DNA from: Chloroflexota bacterium
GTDB lineage: Bacteria > Chloroflexota > Dehalococcoidia > Lucifugimonadales > JADFKI01
Length of the DNA stretch: 64,000 nt
Reading direction: 5' to 3'
Assembly: GCA_009840355.1 (NCBI GenBank)
Contig: VXNZ01000005.1
Span: 1 to 64,000 of the forward strand
Part shown: piece by piece, positions 20,979 through 38,445 of the stretch
Position numbering within the stretch: the first letter of the stretch is position 1
Layout: each line of letters begins with the position of its first letter
Program-made: the position numbers and the translations under genes
The notes under the pieces: generated by a model
Told to the model about the DNA's origin: nothing
The model's input: the letters and a program-made list of their open reading frames with translations, nothing else
The model's database searches: none

Positions 20979-22679
20979 TTACAAGGATTCCGCCCGCAAA
21001 AAGTCGAAGTCGCAGCCTTGGTCGGCTTGGGTTACATGCTGGGAGTACATTACGCCGTAGCCGCGCTTGAAGTGCGGTTTGGGCTGCGGAACCTCGGATA
21101 GCCTGCGCTGCACTTCCCTTTCGTCCACCAGCAGGTCTAGGCGGCGGTTGGGCACATCAAGTTCGATGATGTCGCCGTTGTGGACTGCGGCAAGCGGACT
21201 GCCAGCCGCCGACTCCGGCGTTACATGCACGACGACCGTGCCGAAAGCCGTGCCGCTCATTCGCGCGTCCGATAGGCGCACCATATCGCGAATGCCGCGC
21301 TGCAAGAGCTTGCGTGGCAGCGGCAGAAAGCCCCACTCCGGCATGCCCGGCCCGCCTAAGGGACCCGCGTTGCGCATTACCAGCACATCGTCCGGATGCA
21401 CATCGAGGTCAGGGTCGTCGATGCGGTATTCCATATCGTCGTGGTCATCGAAGACGAGCGCGCGTCCGCGGTGCGTAAGCAGTTCGGGCGATGCCGCAGT
21501 CGGCTTGATTACACCGCCGCCGGGTGCCAGCGATCCGTACACGACCGCAAGCCCGCCCTCTGAATTGAGCGCGTTGTCCAAACTGCGAATGATATCCGGG
21601 TTGTGGTTGATAGTGCCGGCGACATTCTCGCCGAGCGTTCTGCCCGTAATCGTCATCTGCTCGGTGTGGAGCAATGGACGTAGTTCGTTAAGCAGGGCGG
21701 GAAGACCGCCAGCGTAGAAGAAATCTTCCATCAGGAATTCGCCCGACGGCTTCAGATTCAGGATGAACGGTGTGGTGCGCGACAGTTCGTCGAACAGCGT
21801 GAGCGGTAGGTCTATGCCCAGTCGGCCGGCGATCGCGGTCAGGTGTATGATGGCGTTCGTGGACCCGCCGAGAGCGTGCAGGGTGCGAATCGCGTTCTCA
21901 AACGCCTCACGCGTCATGATTTGCGACGGGCGAAGGTCCTGTTCCACAAGCGTCAGTATTTGCCTGCCCGCTGCCTCCGCGAGCTGCGTGCGGCGCGAAT
22001 CCACCGCGGGAATCGCGGCATTGCCCGGCAGCGCGATGCCGAGGGATTCGCCCATCGACGCCATGGTTGACGCCGTGCCCATCACCATGCAGTGCCCCGG
22101 ACTGCGCACGATAGAGTTCTGCAACTCCGCCCACTGCTCTTCGTTGATTCGGCCGGCGCGCAGTTCCGTATGGTAGCGGCGGCAGTCGGTGCAAGAGCCG
22201 AGTTCTTCGCCACGCCAGTTGCCCTTGAGCTGCGGGCCGCCGGTAACGAGAATCGCTGGGATGTCCGCGCTTGCCGCGCCCATGAGCAGCGCGGGCGTGG
22301 TCTTGTCGCAGCCGCCGAGCAGCACGACGCCGTCCAGCGGGTTTGCCCTGATTGATTCTTCGACATCCATGCTCATTAGATTGCGGAAGAGCATGGTAGT
22401 GGGGCGCATATTGTACTCGCCCAGTGACATCACGGGAAACTCCATCGGAAAGCCGCCCGCCTGCCAGACGCCGCGCTTGACCGCCTCCGCGAGTTGGCGC
22501 AGGTGCGCGTTGCAGTGCGTCAGGTCACTCCAAGTGTTGCAGATGCCGATGACGGGCTTGTTTTGGTATGCCGGCTCGCCAAAGCCCTCTGCCTTGAACG
22601 CCGCCTGCCTCAGCCAGCCGTATAGTTCCGGCGTATCGAACCATTCTCGGCTGCGGAGTGGTTTGCCATTAGTCGCCAT
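20979..22679 (-). CDS. IlvD/Edd family dehydratase, sugar-acid type
   Basis: 566 residues. Candidate [2Fe-2S] ligands are Cys56 (LTHCNAHL), Cys124 (GGCDKTTPA, with the Lys that is carbamylated in this family) and Cys197 (PGHCMVMGTASTMA). The segment GSCTDCRRYHTELRAG is typical of the arabinonate/xylonate dehydratase branch rather than of biosynthetic IlvD. It removes water from an aldonic acid to give a 2-keto-3-deoxy acid, the substrate class of the HpcH/HpaI aldolase upstream. Convergent with the aldolase-dehydrogenase genes, with 102 bases between. Confidence 0.92.
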   Translation of the reverse strand: MATNGKPLRSREWFDTPELYGWLRQAAFKAEGFGEPAYQNKPVIGICNTWSDLTHCNAHLRQLAEAVKRGVWQAGGFPMEFPVMSLGEYNMRPTTMLFRNLMSMDVEESIRANPLDGVVLLGGCDKTTPALLMGAASADIPAILVTGGPQLKGNWRGEELGSCTDCRRYHTELRAGRINEEQWAELQNSIVRSPGHCMVMGTASTMASMGESLGIALPGNAAIPAVDSRRTQLAEAAGRQILTLVEQDLRPSQIMTREAFENAIRTLHALGGSTNAIIHLTAIAGRLGIDLPLTLFDELSRTTPFILNLKPSGEFLMEDFFYAGGLPALLNELRPLLHTEQMTITGRTLGENVAGTINHNPDIIRSLDNALNSEGGLAVVYGSLAPGGGVIKPTAASPELLTHRGRALVFDDHDDMEYRIDDPDLDVHPDDVLVMRNAGPLGGPGMPEWGFLPLPRKLLQRGIRDMVRLSDARMSGTAFGTVVVHVTPESAAGSPLAAVHNGDIIELDVPNRRLDLLVDEREVQRRLSEVPQPKPHFKRGYGVMYSQHVTQADQGCDFDFLRAESL

Positions 22680-22763: not shown

Positions 22764-23336
22764 TCAGCGGTTCGGCGGCCCGCGGAATGGGTTCTCGACA
22801 TATTCGGCGAGCTTCAGCGATTCTAGCGCGCCGTTCCACACATCGTTGGCGACCGCGTGGTCTTCGGGCCAATACTCCATCGTGATGAGCGCCTGCACAT
22901 TGCCGCCGCGCGCCAGGCACGCCCGCGAGTGCGCCTTGCGCTTCTCCACCGGGTCGATGAAGTCAATCTCAAGCCATGCGTATTCAAGGTCGCTGCGGCG
23001 CACCTTCAGCAGGGGCCCCTTTCGCGTGCGATGTCGTACGTCGTTCCTCAAGACGACGGTGTCCATGTAGTGCTCAAGCGGCGGGAATATGCCCCAATTG
23101 ACAATCGTGCCGTCCGGTCCGAGTTGCGTAACGGACACTTGCAGGCGAATGTCGTCGTCCGGCTCTTCGCCGTCGTAGAAGCAGATGGTGTCGCCCTCCG
23201 GCTTGACAACCCAGTCGCCCGGGTATTCCAAATGGACGGCGCCCCTGTTGATGACGAAAATCTTGTTTCCGGGCTTCGCCTTCCAGCGGTGCTTGTCGGA
23301 CAGGTTGAATTCGCGGCTTTGCCACTTCTTGCTCAT
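22764..23336 (-). CDS. Unrecognised protein, PsbP/MOG1-like look
   Basis: 190 residues with no clear family. It has no signal peptide. The middle reads VHLEYPGDWVVKPEGDTICF and LQVSVTQLGPDGTI, then AWLEIDFIDPVEKRKAHSRA, LARGGNVQALITMEYW and AVANDVWNGALESLKL. This pattern (YPxxW, late helix with a 'SLKL' end) recalls the alpha/beta sandwich of PsbP/DUF1795 proteins, which is only a guess. Its ATG overlaps the stop of the preceding gene by four bases, so the two proteins are made together and likely interact. Confidence 0.7.
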   Translation of the reverse strand: MSKKWQSREFNLSDKHRWKAKPGNKIFVINRGAVHLEYPGDWVVKPEGDTICFYDGEEPDDDIRLQVSVTQLGPDGTIVNWGIFPPLEHYMDTVVLRNDVRHRTRKGPLLKVRRSDLEYAWLEIDFIDPVEKRKAHSRACLARGGNVQALITMEYWPEDHAVANDVWNGALESLKLAEYVENPFRGPPNR

Positions 23337-23989
23337 TGCTGCGCTCCGTCGCTAGGTTCGTTCGATTGCGCCTGCGCTGCGCCGCGCATTTGGCTGTCGA
23401 TCCATCGTTTAAGCGCGTCCAATGCGGGCGGCGCGACGAAGAACACCTGAATGTCCGCGGGGAACTGTACGCGATGCCCTTCACTGATGAACAGCGCTCC
23501 GTTTCCCGTATTGGTCAGCGTCTCTGAGATGCGTTCTGCGATGTGGTCGAAGCGTTGCTGCGTCGTCTCCTGAATGCCGGAGATCGCCAGATTCATCACC
23601 TTCTCGCTCATCAAGCCGATGGACAGGCAGCGCTGCCAGTCGCTGTGCTCTTCGACGACAGCCCTGTCCTCCGTCGCCTCCAACGATGCGCCGCCGCTGC
23701 GCAGCGCCTGAATGAACGCGCCGCCAAACGGGTTCATCGCCTCGACCATTGCCATGCCTTCGTCATCGCCCGCGTAGATAGTCTCGTGGAACACGTGCAT
23801 CACACTGCCAAGCGAGCGTTCAAGGTTCTGGATGTGGTCGCGCACTTCGGACCAGTAGCGTTCGAGCAGTTGCGTTGCGTCATTGGGCATGTCCGGCGGA
23901 AACAGGAATATCGGCACCAGAAACAGTTTGCGCCGCCCCGCGTACTGTCCGGCTTCGGGCTTCGGCATTTGCGATAAAGGTGTGGTCAT
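23333..23989 (-). CDS. Unrecognised helical protein coupled to the next gene
   Basis: 218 residues, mostly helical, no transmembrane segment beyond a short hydrophobic LFLVPIFLFPP near the N-terminus. Middle helices read TQLLERYWSEVRDHIQNLER and MVEAMNPFGGAFIQALRSGG; the end has ALKRWIDSQMRG. I do not recognise a family or catalytic motif. It is first in a two-gene overlapping unit with the gene at 22764 and is divergent from the DUF429 gene, about 130 bases away. Confidence 0.7.
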   Translation of the reverse strand: MTTPLSQMPKPEAGQYAGRRKLFLVPIFLFPPDMPNDATQLLERYWSEVRDHIQNLERSLGSVMHVFHETIYAGDDEGMAMVEAMNPFGGAFIQALRSGGASLEATEDRAVVEEHSDWQRCLSIGLMSEKVMNLAISGIQETTQQRFDHIAERISETLTNTGNGALFISEGHRVQFPADIQVFFVAPPALDALKRWIDSQMRGAAQAQSNEPSDGAQQ

Positions 23990-24122: not shown

Positions 24123-24974
24123 ATGACCACCATCATAGGCATCGACTTCAGTGGCGCAAAGCACGACCGAGACACCTGGGTTGCTAGCGGACGCCTGACA
24201 AGCGACGGCGCGCTCATATTCGAAGGCGCGAACATGATACGCCGCAAGGATGTGGTCAACCTTCTGATTGCCGCATACCCACCGACCGTATCCGCCATAG
24301 ACTTCCCGTTTAGCGTTCCGCAAGAGTTCGCCGAGTTCCTGAACACAGGCGACGGCTTGAAGGCAATGCCGGATGTGTGGCGCACCATAGACGGAATGAG
24401 CCTTGATGACTTTTATGCGGCGCGAGACGCCTTTGTCAGCCATTTCGGCATAGAACCCAAGCGTGCCGGCGACAGAGCCCATTTCACAGAAAGCTTCTCG
24501 CCGCTGCACAAGGTCAACCCCAACATGGTTCCAATGACATATTGGGGCATCCGCATGCTGCGCGAGCTATTCAGCAAAGAGCCTAGCCGCTGGATTGTGC
24601 CGCCAATGGAAGCGTCGGGCGGCCAAGCCGAAGTCGTAACTCTGCTGGAAACGATGCCCGGCGCATTTCTCAGGGCTATTGGCGCAATCTATAAGGGATA
24701 CAAGAAGCCAAAGTCTGCCCTACTGCGCGACGAACGGCGCAACGCCATCTTGGACGACATCCAGCACAATTCCGGTATCGCGCTGCCCAATTTATCCGAT
24801 TTACGCGAGGTTTGCATCGAAAACGACAATTGCCTCGACGCCGTAGTTGCGGCAGTCGTGGCTGCGCGATGGGCGCAGGACGCAGCCAAATTTCGCCAAC
24901 CTAACGCCGCCGAACTGCCGGCGGCAAGACTCGAAGGCTGGATATACGTCCCCAAGCCTCAGTCCGCCGAGTGA
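24123..24974 (+). CDS. DUF429 domain-containing protein
   Basis: 283 residues from the ATG at 24123, which has GGAGG five bases upstream; a longer reading frame starting at 23883 is rejected for that reason. The N-terminal TTIIGIDFSGAKHDRDTWVA shows the RNase H-like strand with the DUF429 Asp, and SAIDFPFSVP is the second conserved acidic motif. IPLNLSDL-like ALPNLSDLREVC and DNCLDAVVAAVVAARWAQD give the C-terminal Asp. A catalytic nuclease role is suspected for the family but unproven. The end overlaps fdhA by 16 bases on the opposite strand. TACAAT at 24074 may be its -10 box. Confidence 0.85.
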   Translation: MTTIIGIDFSGAKHDRDTWVASGRLTSDGALIFEGANMIRRKDVVNLLIAAYPPTVSAIDFPFSVPQEFAEFLNTGDGLKAMPDVWRTIDGMSLDDFYAARDAFVSHFGIEPKRAGDRAHFTESFSPLHKVNPNMVPMTYWGIRMLRELFSKEPSRWIVPPMEASGGQAEVVTLLETMPGAFLRAIGAIYKGYKKPKSALLRDERRNAILDDIQHNSGIALPNLSDLREVCIENDNCLDAVVAAVVAARWAQDAAKFRQPNAAELPAARLEGWIYVPKPQSAE

Positions 24975-27685
24975 ATCGGTTCGGCTACCTTTTCGATTCG
25001 CACCGCGCAGACTTTGTACTCCGGTATGCCGGAATATGGATCGAGCGCGTCACTGGTCAGGAAGTTAGCAGCGTGTTGCTGCAGCTTGACGAATGGCACG
25101 AACACCTCGCCCTGCCGCATCTTATCAGTGTAGTTTGCCCTGCCCTCTAACACGCCACGCCGCGACTTTAAGCGTATCCACTCGCCGTCTGATACCTCGA
25201 ACTTCGCGCCATCGTCTGCGCTCATGCTGATTTGCAGCTCCGGCGCGCGCGCCAGCAGATTGTCCGCCCTGCGCGTTATCGTACCGCCGTGCCAGTGGTA
25301 CAGGATGCGGCCGGTGTTCAATATCAGCGGGAAGCGCCTGGACGGCATTTCTTCTGCCTGCGGACCCTGGTTGAATGCGACGAACTTTGCCCTAGGACCG
25401 CGCGGGAAATCATACTCGTACAGATAGCGCGTGCCGGGGTGGTCAGGCGTCGGGCACGGCCACTGGATACCGCCTTCGATTTCAAGACGGTCGTACGAAA
25501 TGCCCGCGATGATTGGAGTGTTGCCTGCCATTTCCTGCCATATCTCGGACGGATGCGTGAAGGCGAACTGGTCTTCCATGCCCAACCCAAGATTGCGGCT
25601 CATGCGCTGCGCCAAGTCGCAGAGAATGTCCCAATCCGGTCGGCTGTCGCCAATTGGCTCGACGACCTTGCGGACACGCTGCACACGGCGCTCGCTGTTC
25701 GTGAATGTGCCGTCCTTTTCGGCGAACGATGTGGCGGGCAGCACGACATCTGCGATCTGTGCCGTCTCGTGCAGGAAAATGTCCTGAACTACCAGAAACT
25801 CTAGCTTCTGCAAAACTTCTTCGGCGTGGTTGAGATTCGGCTCGCTCAGCAACGGGTTCTCGCCGGTAACATACATCGCCTTGATGCGACTGTTCTCGAT
25901 GTCGCGCATCATCTCGGTGATGACATGCCCTGCCTCGTCCGGCAGCGGGTGATTGCCCCAAGCTTGTCGGAATTTGGACACTGTGTCCTTGCCGATTCGC
26001 TGATAGCCGGGGAATGCGTCGGGCAGACAGCCCGCGTCTCCGCAGCCCTGTACATTGTTTTGCCCTCGCAGCGGCGAAATACCCGATCCGGGCTTACCGA
26101 GCTGCCCCGCGACGAACGACAGGTTCAGCAGGCTGTGCGCGTTGGCCGTGCCCATCATGTGCTGCGTGATGCCCATTCCCCAGATGAGGCACGACCCGCT
26201 GAACGGCGGCTCAGCGTATATCCGTGCCGCCTGCGCGATGTCGTCCGCACGCACGCCGGTGAGCGATTCCGCATAGTCGAGCGTATATCCGTCTATTACC
26301 GAGCGCCAGTTCTCGAATTCCTCGGTGCGACCGTTCACGAAATCCCAATCGACCAGGTTCTCGTCGAGTATCACCTTCGCCATTGCGTTTAGCAGTGCGA
26401 CGTCAGTGCCCGGGCGCGGTCGCAGCCACAGCTCGGCGAAGTCGCACATATCGATGCGGCGCGGGTTGATGACGATGAGCTTCGCGCCGCGTTCCAGCAC
26501 CGCGCGCCGCATTCGAGACGCGGCGACCGGGTGGTTCGAGTTCGCGTCCGAACCGATAATGACGAGGCAGCCTGCCTCTTCGTAGTCTTGGTACGAATTC
26601 GAAGTAGCGCCGCTCCCCAGCGATGTCAGCATCGCCTCAACGGACGGGGCGTGACACAGGCGTGTGCAGTGGTCGATGTGGTTGCTTTGCATCAGCAGCC
26701 GCGCGAACTTCTGCTGAACATAGCCGTCTTCGTTGGTCGCCTTCGCGGAGCAGAGCGTGGAGAACTCGTAGCCGCGATACTTGGCGAGATTGTCGGCGAC
26801 ATATTCGAGCGCCTCATCCCAGCTCGCCTCGGTCAGGATGCCGTCCTTGCGTATGAGCGGTGCGGTCAGCCTGTCTTCGTGGTTGACAAATGTATAGCCG
26901 AATCGCCCCTTGACGCACAGCATCCCAATGCTGGACTGGTTATCAGGATCGTCGAGCATCGCCACGATGCGGTCGGTGTCGTCAACCTGTGCCTTGATGC
27001 CGCAGCCCACGCCGCAGTATGGGCAGGTCGTAGTAACCTCTTTTTCCACATTCGACGGCGGCGTCTTGACTTCGATTGCGCCCGTCGGGCATACGGACAA
27101 GCACTGCCCGCAAGTTGTGCAGACCGACTCCACTAGCGGGCGTTCCGCGAATGTGCCAATCTTGCCCTGCGTGCCTGTACCTAGCAGGTCAATCGCGCCT
27201 ATGAACTGGTGCCCGTCTTGGCACGCCTGCACGCAGCGTTGGCACAGGATGCAGCTTTCCATCGCTATGTTGAACACCGGATTGCTGCTGTCAACGGCTT
27301 CTCGCTTCCTGCCCTCCCAGCGCGGGGCGGTAATACCGTGCCTGTCCGCTGCGATGGACAGTTCCTTGTAGGACTTGTGCCCGTTCGCCCCGTTTGACGG
27401 GAACATCGCGAGCGTGAGTTCCAGCACGCCCTTGCGCATCGCTTGCACTTCCGGCGTGTCCGTCCAGACGCTCATGCCGTCCGAAACGGGCACCGCGCAG
27501 GAAGCCGGATAGCCACGTACGCCCTCGATTTGTACAAGGCAAGTGCGGCAAGCCCCGATGGGCTTCATGTCCGGGTCTTTGCACAGCTGCGATATGTAAG
27601 TGCCGGACTGATTGATGGCGTCCAAGACCGTCGCAGACTCGCTGACGGTTGTCGGATAGCCGTTGATGCTGAGTGTGATGCTCAT
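24959..27685 (-). CDS. Formate dehydrogenase, alpha (Mo/W-bisPGD) subunit
   Basis: Oxidises formate to CO2, or the reverse, at a bis-pyranopterin metal centre. Domains: [2Fe-2S] ferredoxin (Cys35, 46, 49, 63), two [4Fe-4S] sites CILCQRCVQAC (145-155) and CTTCGQCLSVC (189-199), then a catalytic [4Fe-4S] CPYCGVGC with Cys257. The active site is Cys344-His345 (RLCHAPSVEA), so no selenocysteine. MGTANAHSLLNLSFVAGQLG and RGQNNVQGCGDAGCLPD are FDH hallmarks. 908 residues. The NuoG-like His-Cys [4Fe-4S] region (about 95-120) has no cysteine. Last gene of the formate block; AGGAAGG precedes the ATG. Electrons should pass to the NuoF/NuoE-like subunits upstream. Confidence 0.93.
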   Translation of the reverse strand: MSITLSINGYPTTVSESATVLDAINQSGTYISQLCKDPDMKPIGACRTCLVQIEGVRGYPASCAVPVSDGMSVWTDTPEVQAMRKGVLELTLAMFPSNGANGHKSYKELSIAADRHGITAPRWEGRKREAVDSSNPVFNIAMESCILCQRCVQACQDGHQFIGAIDLLGTGTQGKIGTFAERPLVESVCTTCGQCLSVCPTGAIEVKTPPSNVEKEVTTTCPYCGVGCGIKAQVDDTDRIVAMLDDPDNQSSIGMLCVKGRFGYTFVNHEDRLTAPLIRKDGILTEASWDEALEYVADNLAKYRGYEFSTLCSAKATNEDGYVQQKFARLLMQSNHIDHCTRLCHAPSVEAMLTSLGSGATSNSYQDYEEAGCLVIIGSDANSNHPVAASRMRRAVLERGAKLIVINPRRIDMCDFAELWLRPRPGTDVALLNAMAKVILDENLVDWDFVNGRTEEFENWRSVIDGYTLDYAESLTGVRADDIAQAARIYAEPPFSGSCLIWGMGITQHMMGTANAHSLLNLSFVAGQLGKPGSGISPLRGQNNVQGCGDAGCLPDAFPGYQRIGKDTVSKFRQAWGNHPLPDEAGHVITEMMRDIENSRIKAMYVTGENPLLSEPNLNHAEEVLQKLEFLVVQDIFLHETAQIADVVLPATSFAEKDGTFTNSERRVQRVRKVVEPIGDSRPDWDILCDLAQRMSRNLGLGMEDQFAFTHPSEIWQEMAGNTPIIAGISYDRLEIEGGIQWPCPTPDHPGTRYLYEYDFPRGPRAKFVAFNQGPQAEEMPSRRFPLILNTGRILYHWHGGTITRRADNLLARAPELQISMSADDGAKFEVSDGEWIRLKSRRGVLEGRANYTDKMRQGEVFVPFVKLQQHAANFLTSDALDPYSGIPEYKVCAVRIEKVAEPIHSAD

Positions 27686-27816: not shown

Positions 27817-29439
27817 CTACTGCCGTTCACCAGCCATCATCGCAAGTTCGTCGCCAAAGAAGTGGAGCGCGCTGAGGACGGGATTGCCCGCTGCCTGCCC
27901 CAAGCCGCACAAGGACGCGGCGTTCACCAGTTCCGCGAGCTGCCGCAGTTCGTCAAGCGCGCCAACCGGCGCCTTGCCAGCCACGATGTCATCCACCATT
28001 TTGACCATGCGTGGTGTTCCCTCGCGGCAGGGCGTACACTTGCCGCACGATTCTGCCGCGTTGTACGCCGCGAGCTTGCGCATCATATCCACCGCACTCA
28101 CACTGTCGTCAAGCGCGATGACCCCACCCGCGCCAAGCATCACGCCCGATTCGTGGATGAAGCCCGGCGTGATTGGCGTATCCAGCATAGAAACGGGGAA
28201 TATGCCGCTAGAAGGTCCGCCAACCGCAATCGCGCTCAAAGCCCTGTCGTCTGCGATGCCGCCGCCGATGTCGTAGATAATCTCGCGCAGTGTCGTGCCC
28301 ATCGGCACCTCGGCAAGCCCCCCTCGCCGCACCGAACCGCTAAGGCTGATTATCTTCGTGCCTTTGGCGTCGTCTGTGCCGACTGCCGCGAACGCACCAC
28401 TGCCGTACGCCAAGATGTACGGCACGCTGGACAGCGTTTCCGCGTTGTTAATGACGGTTGGCTTGCCCCAGAGTCCGGCTTCCGTGGGGAATGGAGGGCG
28501 TTGTCGTGGTTCTCTTCGCAAGCCTTCCATCGTGTTTAGCAGCGTGGTTTCGTCGCCGCACACATAGCCTCCCGCGCCGCGCATAATCGCCATGTCCAGC
28601 GCGAAGCCTGATGACAGAATGTCGTCGCCCAACAATCCGCTCGCGTATGCCTGCTCCAAGGCGGTCTGCATGCGCTCGGCGGATAGGTTTGCTTCTGCGT
28701 TGATGTAAATGTGCGCTTCGTGGACGCCAGCCGCGTAAGCCGCGATAATCGCGCCCTCTATCAGTCGATGCGGCACGCCTTCCATGATATGGCGGTCTTT
28801 GAATATGCCCGGTTCGCCTTCCTCGCAATTGACCACAAGGTAGCGCGGAGTGTTGTTGACCGCGCGCGCGCCGCGCCACTTCAGCCCTGCCGGAAAGTAC
28901 GCGCCACCACGCCCTCGCAATCCGGACGCCAGCACTTCCTCGATAACATCGTCCGGTGGCATGGAAAGCGCGCGCGCAAGCCCGTTATATCCCCCGTTCA
29001 GGATGTACTCGCCGATGTGCAGGGCATCCCATTCGCCGCAGCCTTGCAGCGTCAGACGGTGTTGCCTTGCGAGGAAATCGCTGCTGTCAGATTTCGGTTG
29101 AGCGGTATTCGTTGCAGTATCGGAATCCGCTGATGTGTCTGAGAACATGTCCGTGTTCACATCATCAGCGGATAGGTTGCAATACTCGATAGTGCGACCG
29201 TCCGCGAACGACACTATCGCCTTAGGAGCGGCGAAACTCGCGCCATCGCAGCCTGCCGTAACCAGATATGCGTCGTTCGGCAACGCCTGCAACAGCGCGT
29301 CTGCAACTTCACCGGCGCCGACTGCCAGCGAACTGTGCGAGACCTGCACCACAACGCGCGTCTTGCGGTCGCGCGCCTGCCGTTCCACGCTTGCGGCAGC
29401 GCGAAGTGAGCCTAGAGCATCCGTAATGGCGTCCGTCAA
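27817..29439 (-). CDS. NuoF-like (51 kDa) NAD/FMN subunit of formate dehydrogenase
   Basis: Diaphorase subunit that passes electrons between Fe-S centres and NAD through FMN. 540 residues. Glycine-rich NADH/FMN site GLRGRGGAYFPAGLKW (173-188), FMN site NCEEGEPGIFKDRHI (204-218), GGYVCGDETTLLNTMEG, and [4Fe-4S] cysteines 465, 468, 471 (ESCGKCTPCREGTP) and 511 (SLCGLGQAAGNP). The N-terminal 125 residues hold a small alpha/beta, thioredoxin-like domain as in the Hnd/Fds group. It starts at a TTG, overlapping the NuoE-like stop (TTGA) behind GAGGAGG. An ATG-initiated alternative would be far too short. Confidence 0.92.
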   Translation of the reverse strand: MTDAITDALGSLRAAASVERQARDRKTRVVVQVSHSSLAVGAGEVADALLQALPNDAYLVTAGCDGASFAAPKAIVSFADGRTIEYCNLSADDVNTDMFSDTSADSDTATNTAQPKSDSSDFLARQHRLTLQGCGEWDALHIGEYILNGGYNGLARALSMPPDDVIEEVLASGLRGRGGAYFPAGLKWRGARAVNNTPRYLVVNCEEGEPGIFKDRHIMEGVPHRLIEGAIIAAYAAGVHEAHIYINAEANLSAERMQTALEQAYASGLLGDDILSSGFALDMAIMRGAGGYVCGDETTLLNTMEGLRREPRQRPPFPTEAGLWGKPTVINNAETLSSVPYILAYGSGAFAAVGTDDAKGTKIISLSGSVRRGGLAEVPMGTTLREIIYDIGGGIADDRALSAIAVGGPSSGIFPVSMLDTPITPGFIHESGVMLGAGGVIALDDSVSAVDMMRKLAAYNAAESCGKCTPCREGTPRMVKMVDDIVAGKAPVGALDELRQLAELVNAASLCGLGQAAGNPVLSALHFFGDELAMMAGERQ

Positions 29440-29891
29440 GACGACACCTCCTCGATAATCGCGCTGACTTGAGCGACCGCTGCCCTGCCGCGCCACACGC
29501 CATCGACTTCGACCACCGGCGCGACACCGCACATGTAGGCGCAAGGCGTTTCTTCGAGAGTTACATTGCCGTTTGTGCTGTCATTGGCGAGCGCGGCTTG
29601 CGTTTCTGCCATCAGCTGCCTGCCGCCGTTAAGCCAGCAACTCAGCCCCGTGCAAACTCGAATCACATGCTCGCCCGGCTTCTGAATGCGGAGCTCGGTG
29701 TAGCTCGTGGCGGCACCATAAACTTCGCTCGAAGGTATGCCAAGATGCCATCCCACGACTTCCATCGCCCAGTTCGGCAAGTGGCCATACTCGTGCTGGA
29801 GGAAGTGCAGCGCCGGCAGCAGCTGCCCCCGACTGCGCGGGAACTTCTGCCGCAATGTGGTGCGTAGTGCGTTTCTTACTTCCCTGTTCAA
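29436..29891 (-). CDS. NuoE-like (24 kDa) [2Fe-2S] subunit
   Basis: 151-residue thioredoxin-fold ferredoxin subunit. The [2Fe-2S] ligands are Cys80 and Cys85 (VCTGLSCWLNGG) and Cys117 and Cys121 (ETPCAYMCGVAPVV). The N-terminal helical bundle has LLPALHFLQHEYGHLPNWAM and IPSSEVYGAATSYTEL. Works with the NuoF-like subunit. It overlaps that gene by four bases, and starts 68 bases after the AOR stop, so it follows AOR in the same run. Confidence 0.92.
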   Translation of the reverse strand: MNREVRNALRTTLRQKFPRSRGQLLPALHFLQHEYGHLPNWAMEVVGWHLGIPSSEVYGAATSYTELRIQKPGEHVIRVCTGLSCWLNGGRQLMAETQAALANDSTNGNVTLEETPCAYMCGVAPVVEVDGVWRGRAAVAQVSAIIEEVSS

Positions 29892-29959
29892 TCTGCGTCC
29901 CTTGTCCTCGCCTGCTTTCTGCCGCTATTCCAGAATGCGCGATGCGTGATAGCTTGGAT

Positions 29960-31906
29960 TCAGTGCGTCAGCGCCGCGTCCCTCACCACATCCTCTATGC
30001 CCAAATCGAGCAGTGTATCATCCGGTATCGTGCCGTCTGCGTTCCAACGGCGGGCGCGATAGTAACCGTCTATCATCATATCCAAGTCAGCGCGGCTTAA
30101 GCCTACGCCCTGCGCTACGCCGGTTGGTAGCACTTCGTCGAACACTCGCTGCGGCAGTGTATCATCTTCGCGCGTCCAACCTTCGCGGATGTTGAACGCC
30201 TTTTTGAGATTGTTCACACGCTCGCCGATCGCTTGCAACTCGTCCGCGCTCACATCCCAGCCTGTGATGTGCCGGTATATCTCCGCCGATTCTTTGTACA
30301 AGTCGTCGAACGCCTTGCGCAGAAACTTGCACCATATCAGCGAGTCTAACACCGCGGAGAAGTCCTCGCCTTCCGCCGTGATTTTACCGCGCCGTTCATC
30401 CGCTTCCAGTCTATTGACGCGCGCGGAGAAGTCCGCCTCGTACGCCGATGAACGATTGTGGCACGCGCCGCGTGTGCTGACCGCGAGTCCGAGTGCCATC
30501 GTCTTCAGACTGCGCGGTTCGTACCCGGGCATCTCCAAGCCCTTGACCTGCATTGCCCAGTCCTCGCTGCCCTGCCCGACAATACGCGCGGCGCGCAAAC
30601 TGCCCTCGGCGAGCAAGCCGCCTACGCCCTCACGCGCCGCAATGAGCCGGACGCACGCCAATAATTCGTCGCCGCTGCCGAAGCGCAAGTCCATTCCGCC
30701 CGTGTCGTCGAGCGTCAGAATGCCGCGCTCGAAGCACTCCATCGCCCAGGCGATAGTCGCGCCAACGCTGATGGTATCCATGCCGAGCTCGTCGCAAAGC
30801 GTGGACGCGCGAATGACGGTGTTGCCGTCAGCGACGCCGACCAGCGGACCCAAGGCGAAGGCGCTTTCGTATTCCATCCGCCCTTTCGCCTTCTTGCCGC
30901 TGTCGCTCGTCACCAGAATCTTCTCGCAGCCGATTGTGCAGTTGGCGCAATGCGCGTTCTTCACGAAGTTAGTTTCATGGAACTGCTCTGCGCTCACGCC
31001 GTCCGCGCCGTCGAATGTGGACTGCTGGAAGTTGCGCGTGGGCAGGGTGGCAAGGCTGTTGAAGACCGAGACATTCGCCATCGTGCCGAGTGTGCGGTAT
31101 TTCTCGGTCGCCGGGCCCAGACTACGCCGCGTCAAGTCCGCGCCGATGCGGTTGAGCGCGTCCGGGTTTTGCACGGGTACGGCTCGCGTTCCCTTGACCG
31201 CGATCGCCTTCAAATTCTTCGAGCCCATCACTGCGCCGGGTCCGGTGCGCGCCGCCTGCCGTCCGCCGTCATTGGTGATGCTGGCGAAGCGCACCAGATT
31301 TTCGCCTGCGGGACCGATGCACGCCACGCGGGTACGATGCCCCAGACGCATCTTGACAGCCTTCTCGGTTTCAAGCGTGCTCAAGCCCAGCAGGTCGTCC
31401 GCGTCTAGGAAATCAACTTGCCCGTCGTCGATGGACAGCAGGCAGGGATATTCGCTCTTGCCTGTGATTATGAGCGCGTCGCAGCCGGATTTTTTCAGCT
31501 CGGTCGCCATGAAACTGGACGACAGCGAATCGCCGATGAAGCCGGTGAGCGGCGATTTTGTCAGCACCGCGAACTTACTGCTGGTGGTCAGGCGGCTGCC
31601 GACGAGCGGGCTGGTGACGAATATCAGCGGGTTCTGCGGCGCGAGCGGCTCGACGCCCGGCGGGCAGTGCTTGAATAGCAGATATGCGCCAAGCCCCGTG
31701 CCGCCGATGTATCGACGCAGCACGTCTTCTGACAGCGCCTCCCAGTGGCTCTCTTGGCGCGTCAAATCGACTACGAGCGCCCTGCCGTTGTATCCATAAA
31801 GCAAGCGGTTATCCCCAGTTTGCGAATTCGTCGCGCTAGATTTACTGCGCTGACTCGCGCTATTTTGCGCCATTGTATCATGTAGCGCAAGTGAGGATTC
31901 AGCCAC
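29960..31906 (-). CDS. Aldehyde:ferredoxin oxidoreductase (tungsten family)
   Basis: 648 residues. The N-terminal domain binding the bis-pyranopterin cofactor is clear: GGTGLGAYLLFKHCPPG, NPLIFVTSPLVGSRLTTSSK, KSPLTGFIGDSLSSSFMATE. IGPAGENLVRFASITNDGGR and AARTGPGAVMGSKNLKAIAV follow. The [4Fe-4S] ligands begin HCANCTIGCEK. Members interconvert aldehydes and carboxylates with ferredoxin. It starts at GTG inside the moaD stop (8-base overlap), though the first 30 residues are Ser/Asn-rich and the start could be later. Its place between the cofactor genes and NuoE/F-like genes suggests electron exchange with that module. Confidence 0.93.
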   Translation of the reverse strand: MAESSLALHDTMAQNSASQRSKSSATNSQTGDNRLLYGYNGRALVVDLTRQESHWEALSEDVLRRYIGGTGLGAYLLFKHCPPGVEPLAPQNPLIFVTSPLVGSRLTTSSKFAVLTKSPLTGFIGDSLSSSFMATELKKSGCDALIITGKSEYPCLLSIDDGQVDFLDADDLLGLSTLETEKAVKMRLGHRTRVACIGPAGENLVRFASITNDGGRQAARTGPGAVMGSKNLKAIAVKGTRAVPVQNPDALNRIGADLTRRSLGPATEKYRTLGTMANVSVFNSLATLPTRNFQQSTFDGADGVSAEQFHETNFVKNAHCANCTIGCEKILVTSDSGKKAKGRMEYESAFALGPLVGVADGNTVIRASTLCDELGMDTISVGATIAWAMECFERGILTLDDTGGMDLRFGSGDELLACVRLIAAREGVGGLLAEGSLRAARIVGQGSEDWAMQVKGLEMPGYEPRSLKTMALGLAVSTRGACHNRSSAYEADFSARVNRLEADERRGKITAEGEDFSAVLDSLIWCKFLRKAFDDLYKESAEIYRHITGWDVSADELQAIGERVNNLKKAFNIREGWTREDDTLPQRVFDEVLPTGVAQGVGLSRADLDMMIDGYYRARRWNADGTIPDDTLLDLGIEDVVRDAALTH

Positions 31907-32204
31907 CCGCTTGGCTGGAAAAGAGTAGCAGCGTGTCGCCGTCCCGAAGGCGCAGGCAGCCGTCGCTCACGAACTCTGTGCCGTTCAAGTTGAGGGTGTA
32001 ACTTTCCAGCAAGCCGGCAAGGTCATCGCGCAGTACGACGCCGACGAGCGCGGGGCATTTCTCTGCAAGCGCAACGACCAAAGAGGCGGCGCTGGCGTTC
32101 GATGGCAGTGTCAATGCGATTGCCTTGCGACCGCTCGCAATGCGTGCCGTGCCGAATAGCTCGATCGTGACGTTAGCGGTGTGCACCGTGGTATGTTCCA
32201 TCAT
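31899..32204 (-). CDS. MoaD/ThiS family sulfur carrier
   Basis: 101 residues, beta-grasp fold, ending in the Gly-Gly needed for thiocarboxylation (FSSQAGG). Provides sulfur for the dithiolene of the pterin cofactor when it acts with MoaE, which is not in this window. I start at the ATG at 32204 (AGGTAG precedes it) rather than at 32225. It begins four bases after the mobA stop and runs into the AOR gene. Being directly coupled to AOR, it may be a version dedicated to the tungsten enzyme; this is inference. Confidence 0.88.
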   Translation of the reverse strand: MMEHTTVHTANVTIELFGTARIASGRKAIALTLPSNASAASLVVALAEKCPALVGVVLRDDLAGLLESYTLNLNGTEFVSDGCLRLRDGDTLLLFSSQAGG

Positions 32205-32208
32205 GCTG

Positions 32209-32829
32209 CTACCTGCCCTCTTCAACGAGCGACAGAGCGTGCGCCAAGTCGTCCGGCGTGTTCACATTGAAGAAGCTCAACCGGTCGGCGTCGAGCGCGT
32301 CAACTTCATCATCTTGCACATACCGCACGCGAACATCGTCGAAGAAGCGGGCGATGCGCAGCTGTCCGGCTTCGAGGCGGCGCTCAATATGCGGCAGGCA
32401 TGCCTTAGAGTACGCGGAGTGCGTCGGTTCGGGATAGCCTTCCAGCATTGGCACAACGGCGTCGTGCCCCTGCCGCAATGACAGAATATGCTTGATGAGC
32501 GCGGTGTTCAGGAACGGCATGTCACAGGCGACGACGAATCCCCATTCGTTAGACGCGGCGGTTAGCCCGGTGAATATCCCGCCTAACGAACCGGAGTCCG
32601 GGTAGATGTCCACGGCGGTCTTTGCGCCGGCGGGCAGCGGCAGTTCGGCGGCGCGCTCCTTGCTGTTGACCACGACGACGGTCTCGTCCGTAAGCGTGGC
32701 AAGTCGTCCGATGACTCGTGAGATTAACGGCTCGCCGCCGAATGGTTCAAGCGCCTTGTCACGGCCAAGCCTTCGGCTCAATCCGCCGGCAAGCACTATT
32801 GCTGAGACGCTTCTTGAGTCGTCCATCAC
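32209..32829 (-). CDS. mobA: Molybdenum cofactor guanylyltransferase
   Basis: Adds GMP to the molybdopterin to make the bis-MGD form used by FDH. 206 residues. The nucleotidyltransferase signature LAGGLSRRLGRDKALEPFGG is followed by VVACDMPFLNTALI (metal Asp) and YSKACLPHIERRLEAGQLRI. Ends four bases before moaD. Located with the moeA genes, so both the synthesis and guanylation steps are beside the target enzyme. Confidence 0.93.
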   Translation of the reverse strand: MMDDSRSVSAIVLAGGLSRRLGRDKALEPFGGEPLISRVIGRLATLTDETVVVVNSKERAAELPLPAGAKTAVDIYPDSGSLGGIFTGLTAASNEWGFVVACDMPFLNTALIKHILSLRQGHDAVVPMLEGYPEPTHSAYSKACLPHIERRLEAGQLRIARFFDDVRVRYVQDDEVDALDADRLSFFNVNTPDDLAHALSLVEEGR

Positions 32830-32882: not shown

Positions 32883-34829
32883 CTAACTCAGCTCTGCTAC
32901 GACCTGTCCCATCGACTTAGTGCCGTAGCCGCCTAGCGCATCGACTTCTGCTTTGAATGCGTCGCTGCGGATGGTTTCAAGCGCAAACTGCACATTTTCG
33001 CTATCGTAGTGTTCGCGCGGTATCACGAGGTCGTACTGCTCTGACAGCAGCGGCACGAAGTCCAGCCCCATCGCGTTTGCTGCCGACAGGATGCCCAGCC
33101 CGACATCGGCGCGCCCTCCTGCGACCGCTGCCGCAACCGCGAGATGTGTGTATTCCTCGCGGTCATAGCCGCGAATGTCGTCCGGTTCGATGCCAAGTTC
33201 GCGCAGCTTGTAGTCTAGCAAGAGCCGCGTGCCGGAGCCACGCTGCCGGTTGAGGAATGTAACATCATCTCGCGCAAGGTCGTGCAGCGCGGCGATTTGC
33301 TTGGGATTGCTGCATGGCAGAATCAGCCCCTGTATGCGCTGCACGAGATTGACCACGACCACGCTGCGCCCTTTCAGGAAGCGGCGGATGTACGACAGAT
33401 TGTACTCGCCCGTTTCTTCGTCTAGCAGGTGCGAGCCTGCCATATGCGCCTCGCCTCGCGCCAGCGCCATCAGCCCGCCCATGCTGCCCACATTCGACGA
33501 TGCAAGCGTCATCTGCGGCTTTGCCCGGCGCACATGGCTCGCTAGGAGGTCGAGCGTCATATCGTGGCTGCCGATGGCCACGACGGTATCGTCGATCGAT
33601 TCGACCGGCCGCAGAAGTTCGACGCTGACCTCCGCGCCGGCGTCCAAGCCTTCGGAGAAGCGCGGTATCTTCACGATGCCGTCCGCGCGAACAAGCGACA
33701 TTATGACACCCGCGCCGCGCATGATCGGTGATGCGACTAGTTTATCGCCGACACGACCTAGCCGAACTCGCAGAAATTCGTCCTCGCCCATAGGCGACAT
33801 TGTTTTGCGCGTGATTGTCGCTTGCGCTGCGCTTCGGACTGACGCGGGGACACCCAGCATACGCTCGACCAGAGGCTTAACGAAGAGTTCGCAGGTGAGC
33901 GCCGCTGACACGGGATAGCCGGGAATGCCCAGCACCGGCTTGCCTTGCACTACGCCAAGCGCGATAGGATGTCCGGGTCGAATTGCCGTCCCATGCACGA
34001 CGAGTTCGCCAAGCGATTCGATGACGCGCGCCGTGTAGTCTTCGCTGCCCGCAGACGAACCGGCGTTCACCAGTACGATGTCGTGTTGAGCCACCGCCGC
34101 CTTGACACCAGCAAGCAATGCGTCGAAGTCGTCCGGTATCGTCTGCCAAGTCGTCGCATCCCCGCCCCAATCGTCCACCATGCCGCCCAGAACCAGCGAG
34201 TTGAACTCAATGATGTCGCCGGGCTGTAGGTCGCCTCCCACCTGCACGAGTTCGTTGCCGGTCGGTATGACCGCCACGCTAGGCTTACGGCGCACAGGCA
34301 GCGAGGGCAGACCCGCCGCCGCGCACGCCCCCAAGTCCACCGGACGCAAAGTATGGTTCTCGGGCAGCACAAGCTCCGTCGCCACGATGTCCTCTCCAAG
34401 CGGTCGGACATGCTGATATGGCGCGGCAGGCGCTTGTATCTCCAATGTGTCGCCATCAACTTCGTGCACGACTTCAACCATAATCACCGCATCGTAGCCA
34501 TCCGGCATGGGATCACCGGTGTCGATCCAGACCGCTTGCGCTCCAACTGCGAGGTGCAGCGGGGATGTTTCAGTCGCGCCAACCGTGTCCGTGGAGCGCA
34601 CCGCAATGCCGTCCATCGCCGCCGAATCATAGTGCGGCGACGATATTTGCGCCCATATCGGTTCGGCGGTTACACGCCCTTGGGCGCTAGTGAGCGGCAC
34701 GACTTCGGACTCTGTGTGGCGTAATCCGAAAACGGCGTCTAACGCCTTGAAATAGCGGTCGAGCGCATCCTCAAGCGGAATATCGCTGAGATAGTACCGC
34801 CTGCCGTGTCTATGGGATTGGGTCGTCAA
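32883..34829 (-). CDS. MoeA-like molybdotransferase fused to a periplasmic-binding-protein-like domain
   Basis: 648 residues. Residues 1-400 are MoeA-like: ISSPHYDSAAMDGIAVRS, PDGYDAVIMVE, PLGEDIVATELVLPE, SVAVIPTGNELVQVG, NAGSSAGSEDYTARVIESLG, PVLGIPGYPVSAAL. Residues 430-648 are a PBP-like domain (pfam12727 type): DDTVVAIGSHDMTLDLLASH, FLNRQRGSGTRLLLDYKL, AGGRADVGLGILSAA, with no signal peptide. The PBP part may sense molybdate or tungstate inside the cell. Starts at TTG behind AGGA. A second, unfused moeA lies 200 bases upstream. Confidence 0.9.
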   Translation of the reverse strand: MTTQSHRHGRRYYLSDIPLEDALDRYFKALDAVFGLRHTESEVVPLTSAQGRVTAEPIWAQISSPHYDSAAMDGIAVRSTDTVGATETSPLHLAVGAQAVWIDTGDPMPDGYDAVIMVEVVHEVDGDTLEIQAPAAPYQHVRPLGEDIVATELVLPENHTLRPVDLGACAAAGLPSLPVRRKPSVAVIPTGNELVQVGGDLQPGDIIEFNSLVLGGMVDDWGGDATTWQTIPDDFDALLAGVKAAVAQHDIVLVNAGSSAGSEDYTARVIESLGELVVHGTAIRPGHPIALGVVQGKPVLGIPGYPVSAALTCELFVKPLVERMLGVPASVRSAAQATITRKTMSPMGEDEFLRVRLGRVGDKLVASPIMRGAGVIMSLVRADGIVKIPRFSEGLDAGAEVSVELLRPVESIDDTVVAIGSHDMTLDLLASHVRRAKPQMTLASSNVGSMGGLMALARGEAHMAGSHLLDEETGEYNLSYIRRFLKGRSVVVVNLVQRIQGLILPCSNPKQIAALHDLARDDVTFLNRQRGSGTRLLLDYKLRELGIEPDDIRGYDREEYTHLAVAAAVAGGRADVGLGILSAANAMGLDFVPLLSEQYDLVIPREHYDSENVQFALETIRSDAFKAEVDALGGYGTKSMGQVVAELS

Positions 34830-35029: not shown

Positions 35030-36283
35030 TCAAACTAAAAACAACCGCACATCCACCGTATCGCCCGCATAAAGCCCTGACCTGTCGAGCGGTACCTTTA
35101 CGATGCCATCGGAGCGCACAAGCAGATAAATCAGGTTTGATTTGCCAAACACAGGTATGGCTTGCGCGCGACCGCTATCGTGTTCGATACGGACAGGGAC
35201 AAAGTCTTCTCGGCCTGCATCGGAAGATATGTCGCGCGTGAGCGTTGCCTCGCACGACGCCGAATTCGGCGCACTATCAATGCCGCTCATTTGATAGATT
35301 GCCGGACGAACTATCAGGTGGAAGACGATCATCGCGGAGACAGGATTGCCCGGCAGGCCGAACACGGGCTTGCCGTCCGCCAAGCCAATGACGGTCGGCT
35401 TGCCCGGCTTGATGGAAATGCCATGCACGATGACGCCCGGCTCGCCGAGGCTGTTTATCACATCCGCGGTCAGGTCGCGGCTGCTTACCGAGCTGCCGGC
35501 GGAGAACACGAGCGCATCGCAAGCCGCAAGCCCTTCAATCGCCGCGTTACGCTGCGCATCGAAATCGTCCGGTGCGAGCGCGATAGGAATCGGTTTGCCT
35601 CCTACCTGCTCCACCAGCGCGGCGATGGTGTATGTGTTGATGTCGCGAATCTGTCCAGCGCCGACTTGCGCGCCGGGCGGCACCAACTCGTCGCCGGTGG
35701 ATATTATGCCGACACGGGGCTTGCGGCACACATCAATGTGTGTGATACCCAGCGCGAGCAGACCGCCAATGTCCTGCGGTCGAATCACACTGCCTTTGGA
35801 CAAGATGACATCACCCTTGCGCACATCCTCGCCGACCTGCACAACATTCTCGCCGGGCGCAACGGCGCGCAGCACTTCAATCGCGGTCTCGTCCAGAGCT
35901 TGCGTGCGTTCGACCATAACTACGGCGTCCGCGCCTTCTGCCAGCATGCCGCCGGTATAAGCCTTCGCCACCTGCCCTACTCTGAGCCGGACATTCGCCG
36001 ATTCGCCCATCGGCACTTCGCCTACCAAGTCAAGGTACGCGGGTAAGCCTTCGCTCGCGCCGAATGTGTCCCGCGAGCGCACGGAATAGCCGTCCATCGA
36101 GGAACGCGGGAATGCCGGCAAGTCTTCGGGCGAGTGTATGTCAGCCGCCGTTACGCGCCCGAGCGACTCAGACACGGGCACGACCTCCACTCCGACCGAC
36201 GATTTCAGCATCGGCTTCAGCGCGTCGAACGCAGCGTCCGGGGCAAGCACATTGAAGAACTCGGGCATGTTAAACCCCGCCAC
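35030..36283 (-). CDS. moeA: Molybdopterin molybdotransferase MoeA
   Basis: 417 residues in the standard MoeA order: PAFPRSSMDGYSVRSRDTFG, AEGADAVVMVERTQ, VGIISTGDELVPPG, VFSAGSSVSSRDLTADVINS, GKPVFGLPGNPVSAMIVF, and a C-terminal barrel with DFVPVRIEHD and VRSDGIVKVPLDRSG. Inserts Mo (or W) into adenylylated pterin. It is the second moeA-type gene in the block and has no PBP tail. Two copies often reflect separate metal choices, for instance Mo and W, but the sequence does not decide. Confidence 0.93.
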   Translation of the reverse strand: MAGFNMPEFFNVLAPDAAFDALKPMLKSSVGVEVVPVSESLGRVTAADIHSPEDLPAFPRSSMDGYSVRSRDTFGASEGLPAYLDLVGEVPMGESANVRLRVGQVAKAYTGGMLAEGADAVVMVERTQALDETAIEVLRAVAPGENVVQVGEDVRKGDVILSKGSVIRPQDIGGLLALGITHIDVCRKPRVGIISTGDELVPPGAQVGAGQIRDINTYTIAALVEQVGGKPIPIALAPDDFDAQRNAAIEGLAACDALVFSAGSSVSSRDLTADVINSLGEPGVIVHGISIKPGKPTVIGLADGKPVFGLPGNPVSAMIVFHLIVRPAIYQMSGIDSAPNSASCEATLTRDISSDAGREDFVPVRIEHDSGRAQAIPVFGKSNLIYLLVRSDGIVKVPLDRSGLYAGDTVDVRLFLV

Positions 36284-36398: not shown

Positions 36399-38021
36399 CT
36401 ACAACCCCAAGATATTCCCCTCGCCGTCCACATCTAGCGCGCGCGGGGAACCCGGCAAGCCGGGCATCGTCATGATGCTGCCGGCAATTGGGTATATGAA
36501 GCCCGCGCCGACGGATGCTCGCACGTCGTTGACCTCGAAAGTGTAGCCGGACGGCCTGCCCTTGAGGCGCGGGTTGTGCGAGATGGACAGGTGCGTCTTC
36601 GCCATGCACACAGGCAGGCTGCCCCAGCCCTGCTCTTCGTAACGGCGCAGCAGCCGGCGCGTGGACGGCGCCCAGGACACATCGTCCGCGCCGTACATCT
36701 TCTGTGCCAATGCCAACACCTTCTCGCGAATCGTGGCGTCTTCGGGGTACATATAAGTGATTTCCGGTTCGTCGCCAGAGGTCGCATCTATGACCGCCTG
36801 TGCAAGATCGACGCCGCCTGCGCCGCCCTCGGTGAACACGCGCGTGTCCACGGCGGCGAATGCGCCTGCTTCCTCGCAGCCCTTCCTGACAATATCCAGC
36901 TCCGATTCGGTGTCAGACGGGAATCTATTCAGCGCGACCACAACGGGCAAGCCGAACGAACGGATCGCGCCGATTAGATGCACCAGATTTGCCATGCCGC
37001 GCTGCACTCTTTCTTCGTTCGGCTCGTCGAGCTGACGCCTAAGCGCCCCGCCGTGCGACCGCAGCGCACGCACCGTCGCCACGATAACCGCGCCGCTCGG
37101 TTCGAGGCCATTGAAGCGCGCTTTGATGTGCATAAATTTCTCGAAGCCCAAGTCTGCGCCGAAGCCCGCTTCAGTCAGCACATAGTCGGCGTATCCGAGT
37201 GCAATTCTGTCGCCCATCACCGAGCTGCAGCCGTGCGCGATATTGCCGAATGGGCCGGCATGCACGATGACCGCCTGCCCTTCCGTAGTCTGCACGAGGT
37301 TCGGCTGAATGGCGTAGCGCAGCAGCGACATCATCGAGCCGACCGCGTTCACATCTTCCGCCGTTACGGGATCGCCGGAGTTTGTAGTGCCCACCACGAT
37401 GCGGCTGAGACGTTCGCGCAGGTTCTCGAGGCTAGACGACAACGCGAGCACCGCCATAATCTCGGACGCGGTAACGATGTCGAATCCGGACTCCCGCATC
37501 GGAGCATTTGGCGAGCCGCCAATGCCGCTGACAATTGTTCGCAGCGCCCTGTCTTCGACATCCGTCACGCGCCGCCAAGTTATGCCGGTCGGACCGAAGC
37601 CGGGAATCTGCCCGCGCTGCGCCACATTGTCCGTAAGCGCGGCGAGCAGGTTGTGCGCCGAGCCGACGGCGTGCGCGTCGCCGGTGAAGTGGATGTTTAC
37701 TTCGTCCTGCGGCTCGACTAGAGACAGTCCGCCGCCCGTACCGCCGCCCTTTATGCCGAATATCGGACCGAGCGAAGGTTCTCGCAGCGTAGCGACGACA
37801 TTCTTGCCAAGCCTGCCGAATCCTTGCGCCATGCCGACCGTCGTGGTCGTCTTGCCTTCGCCGGCGGGCGTAGGCGTGATGCCGGTTACGACAATCATCT
37901 TGCCACGCTTGCCGTCCGTGCGCTCGGCGCTCAGCGGTATCTTCGCCTTGTAATGCCCCTGCGGGATAAGCGATTGCGTGTCCAGACCGAGTTCTGCCGC
38001 AACATCCATTATTGGACGCAT
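36399..38021 (-). CDS. fhs: Formate-tetrahydrofolate ligase
   Basis: Makes 10-formyl-THF from formate, THF and ATP, linking formate with folate C1 pools. 540 residues from the ATG at 38021 (GGAG ten bases upstream); the 13-residue extension in front is not part of the family. The P-loop-like TPAGEGKTTTTVGMAQGFG is at 51-69. REPSLGPIFGIKGGG and VNIHFTGDAHAVGSAHN follow, and SDFGFGADLGFEKF-like AGFGADLGFEKFMHIKARFN in the middle. Complete, with the terminal NILGL. First gene of the formate block, whose promoter must lie in the 424 bases upstream. Confidence 0.95.
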   Translation of the reverse strand: MRPIMDVAAELGLDTQSLIPQGHYKAKIPLSAERTDGKRGKMIVVTGITPTPAGEGKTTTTVGMAQGFGRLGKNVVATLREPSLGPIFGIKGGGTGGGLSLVEPQDEVNIHFTGDAHAVGSAHNLLAALTDNVAQRGQIPGFGPTGITWRRVTDVEDRALRTIVSGIGGSPNAPMRESGFDIVTASEIMAVLALSSSLENLRERLSRIVVGTTNSGDPVTAEDVNAVGSMMSLLRYAIQPNLVQTTEGQAVIVHAGPFGNIAHGCSSVMGDRIALGYADYVLTEAGFGADLGFEKFMHIKARFNGLEPSGAVIVATVRALRSHGGALRRQLDEPNEERVQRGMANLVHLIGAIRSFGLPVVVALNRFPSDTESELDIVRKGCEEAGAFAAVDTRVFTEGGAGGVDLAQAVIDATSGDEPEITYMYPEDATIREKVLALAQKMYGADDVSWAPSTRRLLRRYEEQGWGSLPVCMAKTHLSISHNPRLKGRPSGYTFEVNDVRASVGAGFIYPIAGSIMTMPGLPGSPRALDVDGEGNILGL

Positions 38022-38445
38022 ATTTTCTATCTCCTCATATAGCCACCAGTGATATTTCAACGGAACGCGATTCGCTCAATTTCTCAATTCAGCGTCGCAA
38101 GCGCATTCTAACACACAGCGCAATACTTACACACAGACCGTCTCTGAAAGGGGCGATGTTTAGGAGAGGGCAAAACGATTCACACACAATCCCAAATACC
38201 GTGCTGTCCTGCCAATCGTCTAATCCCAGTTAGACACGACCTTGCCCACCGTCGAACAGCGTGTACACCTATGCCGCCTTTTCCAGCGTGTAATGTGACT
38301 CAGCGGAATGCCGCGCTTGTCTCAACCCGAGTTCCGAGTTCGTTTTAGGCGTGGTCTCAGGTGCCATGCCGTCGTGGTGCACAGTGGCTACTCGTCTGCC
38401 AAGCGCGCGAAACCCATCGGGATAGTTTCTCGTGTTGCCAGGCTC
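38022..38445. other. Intergenic region upstream of fhs
   Basis: 424 bases between fhs and the Memo-family gene, both on the minus strand. It should contain the promoter of the formate block. By eye I find no tRNA, no convincing riboswitch, and no repeat copy. It is moderately AT-rich and has no coding character. Confidence 0.4.

Follow-up and report, generated by a model that had tools for sequence, protein, structure and literature searches.

A conserved gene order of aldehyde oxidoreductase, NuoEF and formate dehydrogenase in SAR202-type Dehalococcoidia, with NuoEF best read as part of the formate dehydrogenase

Introduction

The NAD-linked WORs known so far need WorS, combined either with WorN (Class III) or with WorABC (Class IV). 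Class III, exemplified by Aromatoleum AorABC, uses WorS and the FAD subunit WorN. Class IV, exemplified by A. mobile WorABCSL, is bifurcating and has the operon order WorSLCBA (PMC13328260); from its chain names and the same paper we infer that PDB entry 9mqx is the A. mobile complex. Non-bifurcating NuoF homologues lack B2-B5 (PMC9304861). Class I enzymes such as PfAOR and BmWOR consist of a single large subunit, and the closest described formate dehydrogenases (FDHs) are NAD-linked enzymes of the FdsGBA/MeFDH1 type (6tg9, 7vw6).

Both the deep sea and sponges harbour SAR202-type bacteria in abundance. These have been predicted to oxidise C1 compounds (PMC5395668). Our literature search found no paper naming SAR202 together with aldehyde ferredoxin oxidoreductase, and the work on AOR and FDH of Pelobacter (PMC4275255) held no precedent at the gene level. 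Here we examine a 64,000-nucleotide stretch of DNA (the window) in which an aldehyde oxidoreductase (AOR) gene directly precedes nuoE and nuoF. The original prediction was that this diaphorase might serve both AOR and FDH; it overlooked that bifurcating WORs (9mqx) already unite an AOR with NuoE/NuoF-like subunits.

Results

Layout of the locus

Gene order, conservation, and domain and ligand content were read directly from the sequences. The genes run on the minus strand in the order FTHFS, moeA, moeA-PBP, mobA, moaD/WorX-like, AOR, nuoE, nuoF, fdhA, u218, (u190), ilvD:

36399..38060, minus strand: FTHFS, formate-tetrahydrofolate ligase (PF01268, 731 bits); first gene of the conserved cluster, adjacent in most relatives
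35030..36283, minus strand: moeA, metal insertion into pterin (PF03453/PF00994/PF03454)
32883..34829, minus strand: moeA fused to a periplasmic-binding-protein-like domain (PRK14498 type; NF011068, 788 bits)
32209..32829, minus strand: mobA, cofactor guanylyltransferase (PF12804; TIGR02665 below cut-off)
31899..32225, minus strand: moaD/ThiS-like small protein, WorX-like (NF041918, 27 bits, below cut-off; synteny); immediately 5' of AOR in almost all relatives
29960..31906, minus strand: AOR, tungsten-type aldehyde oxidoreductase large subunit (PF02730 and PF01314, i.e., AFOR_N and AFOR_C; alignment to 1aor)
29436..29891, minus strand: nuoE-like (FdsG-like) [2Fe-2S] thioredoxin-fold subunit (PF01257, 2Fe-2S_thioredx; HydC, FdsG and WorC-type PDB matches)
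27817..29439, minus strand, reading frame open to 29544: nuoF-like (FdsB-like) FMN/NAD subunit (PF01512 and PF10589, Complex1_51K and NADH_4Fe-4S; Cys comparison)
24959..27685, minus strand: fdhA, NAD-formate dehydrogenase catalytic subunit (Fer2, Fer4 and molybdopterin domains; TIGR01591)
23333..23989, minus strand: u218, conserved, of no known family, following fdhA
20979..22679, minus strand: ilvD/edd-type dehydratase, end of the conserved block (PF00920; synteny)

AOR, nuoE, nuoF and fdhA have intact reading frames that match their family profiles, and the predicted order of these four genes was recovered in full, with exactly 68 bases between AOR and nuoE and 131 bases between nuoF and fdhA. 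The predicted overlap of moaD with AOR depends on where AOR begins: it exists from GTG 31906 and vanishes from ATG 31873, 25 nt past moaD, or from TTG 31804, the start of the relatives. Either of the latter two is likelier than GTG 31906, because the AFOR_N match sets in only at residue 41 and the relatives have their starts there. For nuoF the most likely start is TTG 29439, where TTGA overlaps the nuoE stop, GAGGAGG lies upstream and the product has about the same length as in relatives. A promoter and terminator scan yielded fewer terminators than shuffled sequences.

The AOR as a probable Class I-type enzyme

The AOR is most similar to PfAOR (388 bits), next to A. mobile WorL of 9mqx (373) and to other AORs. 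Alignment to 1aor shows that the [4Fe-4S] ligands are conserved (Cys320/323/327/526) and that Glu347, Tyr462, His483 and Thr275 are kept as well; the residues listed as conserved among aldehyde-oxidising WORs are present (PMC13328260). AFOR_N and AFOR_C, together with the PfAOR ligands (Thr243, Glu313, Tyr427, His448 and four Cys), identify it as a WorL-type subunit with one [4Fe-4S] cluster only, and it is the single AOR of the genome. Its metal is assumed from the family to be tungsten, not molybdenum. As in Class I there is a single large subunit with a WorX/MoaD-like neighbour and the same cofactor ligands, and the composition agrees with that class except for the adjoining nuoEF; unlike Class I enzymes, this AOR shares an operon with an NAD-FDH.

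NuoE, NuoF and FdhA form a predicted NAD-formate dehydrogenase

PDB matches place NuoE and NuoF in the diaphorase family of complex I, Fds, Hyd/Bfu and Wor, with NuoF matching 9mqx_B and NuoE matching 9mqx_C. The cluster cysteines of the NuoE-like protein are Cys80/85/117/121. FdhA scores 747 bits against TIGR01591 (cut-off 666), has MeFDH1 (7vw6) as its best PDB match and the alpha subunits of MeFDH1 and FdsA as its top relatives, and carries an N-terminal NuoG/HydA-type arm with one [2Fe-2S] and two [4Fe-4S] clusters; FdhA has one further [4Fe-4S] in addition. Its active site is Cys344-His345, of which Cys344 is kept in 34/34 relatives, and its N-terminus is detectably related to WorA of 9mqx (64 bits).

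The nuoE-nuoF-fdhA set in this order, the NuoG-like arm, the FMN/NAD subunit with one [4Fe-4S], the Cys-His site and the TIGR01591 score above cut-off are all shared with enzymes of the FdsGBA/MeFDH1 type, and judged by these features nuoEF and fdhA encode what is predicted to be a complete FdsGBA-like NAD-formate dehydrogenase. The window locus differs in that the arm lacks the His/Cys (N5-type) cluster, which is present in 0/34 relatives, that an AOR stands in front and that no FdhD was detected. FdhD is normally required to sulfurate formate dehydrogenase. The FdhD profile (PF02634) found no match in the genome itself nor in 140 of the 147 genomes sampled from the order, where a divergent FdhD is possible, and we speak of an FdsGBA-like locus rather than a full member because an FdhD/FdsC chaperone was not found. 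Across this sample FdhD is mostly absent although FdhA1 is present in >50 of the 147 genomes.

The genome encodes two NuoF and one FDH of the FdhA type. Next to the second NuoF lies a NuoG-like protein in which the FDH active-site Cys is missing (0/3); therefore the NuoEF of the window is the sole candidate partner for FdhA (and AOR). At NuoF residues 71, 99 and 103, N-terminal Cys are conserved in 40-42 of 45 AOR-linked NuoF, and the N-terminal cluster was probably lost in the window protein because Ser replaces two of the three.

The AOR-nuoE-nuoF order is old

We compared AOR loci and their flanks in 147 genomes spread evenly over the same order (SAR202-type Dehalococcoidia), the closest relatives of the locus being Dehalococcoidia/SAR202 MAGs. 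At an AOR identity of at least 58%, nuoE or nuoF follows AOR in 14/14 loci. On the AOR tree, nuoEF follows AOR in 49 of the 53 rows of one clade, which covers about 17 families and AOR identities down to 47%; because of this recurrence the order, which the original prediction suggested looking for elsewhere, is an old conserved unit and not chance. The linkage needs two changes on the tree, a single gain at the base of the 53-row clade (SH-aLRT 97) and a single loss, which falls in genus g66. Streamlined genomes have gaps of 8-48 nt between AOR and nuoE and of 12-51 nt between nuoF and fdhA.

AORs outside the clade had no nuoEF within the flanks examined. Among the nearest of these (47-54% identity), L017 and L020 adjoin a WorS-like Fe-S protein, L018 and L019 have neighbours read as IorA and IorB from sequence rather than by family search, and L016 has neither. 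AOR homologues without nuoEF but with ferredoxin partners were named beforehand as the case that would speak against a shared module. This case is half realised: the nearest AORs outside the clade are without nuoEF, and some of them adjoin WorS-type Fe-S proteins or IorAB. Within the clade the sole exception is g66, where AOR has neither the nuoEF link nor another such partner. L018 and L019 also lie near an apparent paaK-like gene, recognised by eye, suggesting surroundings of aromatic amino acid degradation.

NuoEF probably belongs to the formate dehydrogenase

Corrected counts over the 147 genomes give 51 with both the clade AOR and FdhA1, 2 with AOR only and 3 with FdhA only; these counts share ancestry, and no probability is drawn from them. 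They leave out G122 (66% complete, AOR fragment only). Before correction they stood at 50, 3 and 3, and the difference is due to G044, which was dropped as a case of AOR-nuoEF without FdhA when a 75% FdhA1 fragment was found at a contig end. The two genomes with AOR but without FdhA1 (G083 and G142) are both incomplete or fragmentary. G105, whose AORs belong to other clades, keeps nuoEF (L170) and FdhA1 (L157; FdhA 73%). In genus g66, AOR, nuoEF and fdhA are all present but far apart, and where AOR is missing, in three g66 genomes, so are the second NuoF and FdhA1. AOR, nuoEF and fdhA act as a single evolutionary unit, within which FdhA is the partner that NuoEF is never convincingly without.

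After neighbour control, the distance correlation of NuoF with FdhA is 0.33 vs 0.03 for AOR with NuoF, a weak signal from 21 genomes, and a mirror-tree of AOR with NuoE/F showed nothing beyond shared history. The Cys patterns of FdhA and NuoF are alike in AOR-linked genomes and in the unlinked g66 and G105.

The best reading is that NuoEF belongs primarily to FDH. The further claim that the diaphorase also serves AOR found no support: NuoEF with FdhA alone makes up a standard NAD-FDH in which the docking Fe-S arm is part of FdhA, AOR comes without an adaptor subunit and is never convincingly found without FdhA in this clade, and G105 has nuoEF and fdhA without a clade AOR.

One could go further and attribute the whole arrangement to cofactor supply and expression, with AOR and FDH sharing W/Mo-pterin genes and a promoter and nothing else. 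Two moeA genes, mobA and moaD do lie in the same block, and g66 retains the mobA-moaD-AOR unit by itself. However, a metabolic theme is suggested by FTHFS and fdhA, which both act on formate, and the redox gene order is unusually constant, which makes such pure clustering improbable.

Wiring between AOR and NuoEF

No WorS-type Fe-S reading frame was found near any nuoEF-linked AOR, and neither a separate WorA nor WorN was seen at the window locus, where the genes after AOR are nuoE and nuoF and not an FAD subunit. Because AOR has a single [4Fe-4S] and there is no WorS, WorA or WorN, no wire from AOR to NuoF is visible. A hidden ferredoxin between AOR and nuoE was likewise found in none of the clade loci; the one extra match, in L103, overlies nuoE on the other strand and is spurious. 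The genome has one very small ferredoxin candidate, a 100-aa reading frame at G000:C17 (one profile).

A link to NuoEF would, as in Class III, join aldehyde oxidation to NAD, but coupling of the AaAOR type is rejected, as neither WorS nor WorN was found at the locus. Likeness to Class IV is closer: AOR is followed by NuoE- and NuoF-like genes in the order L-C-B and then by a WorA-like N-terminus, so that the window presents WorSLCBA minus WorS, with the WorA-like domain fused to FDH. These homologous subunits and their order (PMC13328260) would suit a Wor-Bfu-like enzyme that splits AOR electrons between ferredoxin and NAD via NuoEF. However, the C-terminal pair of [4Fe-4S] required of BfuB (PMC9304861, PMC13328260) was absent from the NuoF of every AOR-linked locus with a readable tail, the window NuoF having one [4Fe-4S], and neither WorS nor a separate WorA was found at the locus. 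A bifurcating WOR working by the known mechanism is refuted at the sequence level by the missing WorS and C-terminal Fe-S domain, and we consider Class IV bifurcation extremely improbable. Since no WorS-type gene lies near AOR and NuoF lacks the C-terminal ferredoxin domain, any transfer from AOR to NuoEF must be non-bifurcating, either direct or via the FdhA arm.

Because the L-C-B-(A fused to FDH) order mirrors WorSLCBA without S, a shared NAD site stays alive as a reading. AOR would dock on NuoEF-FdhA, perhaps at the ferredoxin-like arm of FdhA, and the same NuoF would serve aldehyde and formate. The single gain and near-universal retention of AOR-nuoE-nuoF agree with such docking, as do the relationships to the 9mqx subunits. 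The AOR-nuoEF link also survives relocation of fdhA, which lies ~13 kb off on the other strand in G036, on another contig in G096 and 3-4 kb off in G119 and G126. Electron flow from AOR to NuoEF and NAD would be thermodynamically downhill. However, the lack of WorS or any other Fe-S adaptor for an AOR with one cluster, the retention of nuoEF and fdhA in G105, the persistence of the three parts far apart in g66, the absence of excess covariation of AOR with NuoE/F and the unchanged Cys patterns in unlinked genomes all count against it, and we regard a shared site as a serious though rather unlikely possibility. Its specific form, a WorS-less, non-bifurcating hub with AOR (via the FdhA arm) and FdhA on one NuoEF, would be an undescribed WOR class, and we hold it to be unlikely.

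Discussion

On balance, the gene content points to a joint Mo/W-enzyme operon, probably combining an FdsGBA-like NAD-FDH with a Class I-type (ferredoxin-type) AOR. NuoE, NuoF and FdhA would form a soluble, non-bifurcating NAD-dependent formate dehydrogenase, in which the bis-MGD site of FdhA would oxidise formate and the electrons would pass through the four Fe-S clusters of FdhA to NuoF (Fe-S, FMN) and on to NAD+. AOR, with its WorX/MoaD-like neighbour, would be a stand-alone W-pterin enzyme oxidising an aldehyde, with its electrons most likely going to ferredoxin. Formaldehyde would fit because FTHFS and FDH are nearby, and it is suggested as a candidate only by these surrounding formate genes. 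AOR and FDH would share an operon because the cofactor pathway upstream is common to both and probably because of metabolite flow as well, from aldehyde to acid/formate and then to CO2 and NADH. We infer the composition of the complexes, ferredoxin as the AOR acceptor and the AOR substrate from these gene contents.

Several observations run against the joint operon with a ferredoxin-type AOR. The AOR-nuoE adjacency is nearly as tight as that of nuoF and fdhA and outlasts the fdhA moves in G036 and G096, the slot directly 3' of related AORs sometimes holds a redox partner, and the genome has that single tiny ferredoxin candidate. FdhD, needed by a standard FDH, was not found, and by analogy the L-C-B-A order resembles that of the bifurcating WOR operon (PMC13328260).

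What the locus suggests is an aldehyde-formate route based on W/Mo and retained for as long as the order has existed. If AOR does use NuoEF, this would be a WOR-FDH electron link without the small Fe-S subunit of other multi-subunit WORs, and aldehyde and formate oxidation would feed one NAD site in abundant, largely uncultured ocean bacteria.

Other features of the FDH loci deserve mention. The u218 gene trails fdhA, also at relocated fdhA genes (L153-L156). Its product falls in no Pfam family; the predicted structure is confident (pLDDT 87) and has no counterpart in the PDB at E<=0.001. It is a candidate FDH accessory. In G018 (L152:12526-15658), the FDH after AOR-nuoE-nuoF is split into a 294-aa Fe-S reading frame and a 715-aa catalytic one, representing either a separate WorA-like subunit or a frameshift. 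Three AOR-less nuoF-fdhA loci (L158, L159 and L172) encode NuoF with two extra C-terminal [4Fe-4S] motifs, and their products are, from these motifs, probable bifurcating FDHs; L158 and L159 also carry FTHFS and mobA. Where AOR is absent, the selenocysteine FDHs found in the order pair with nuoF.
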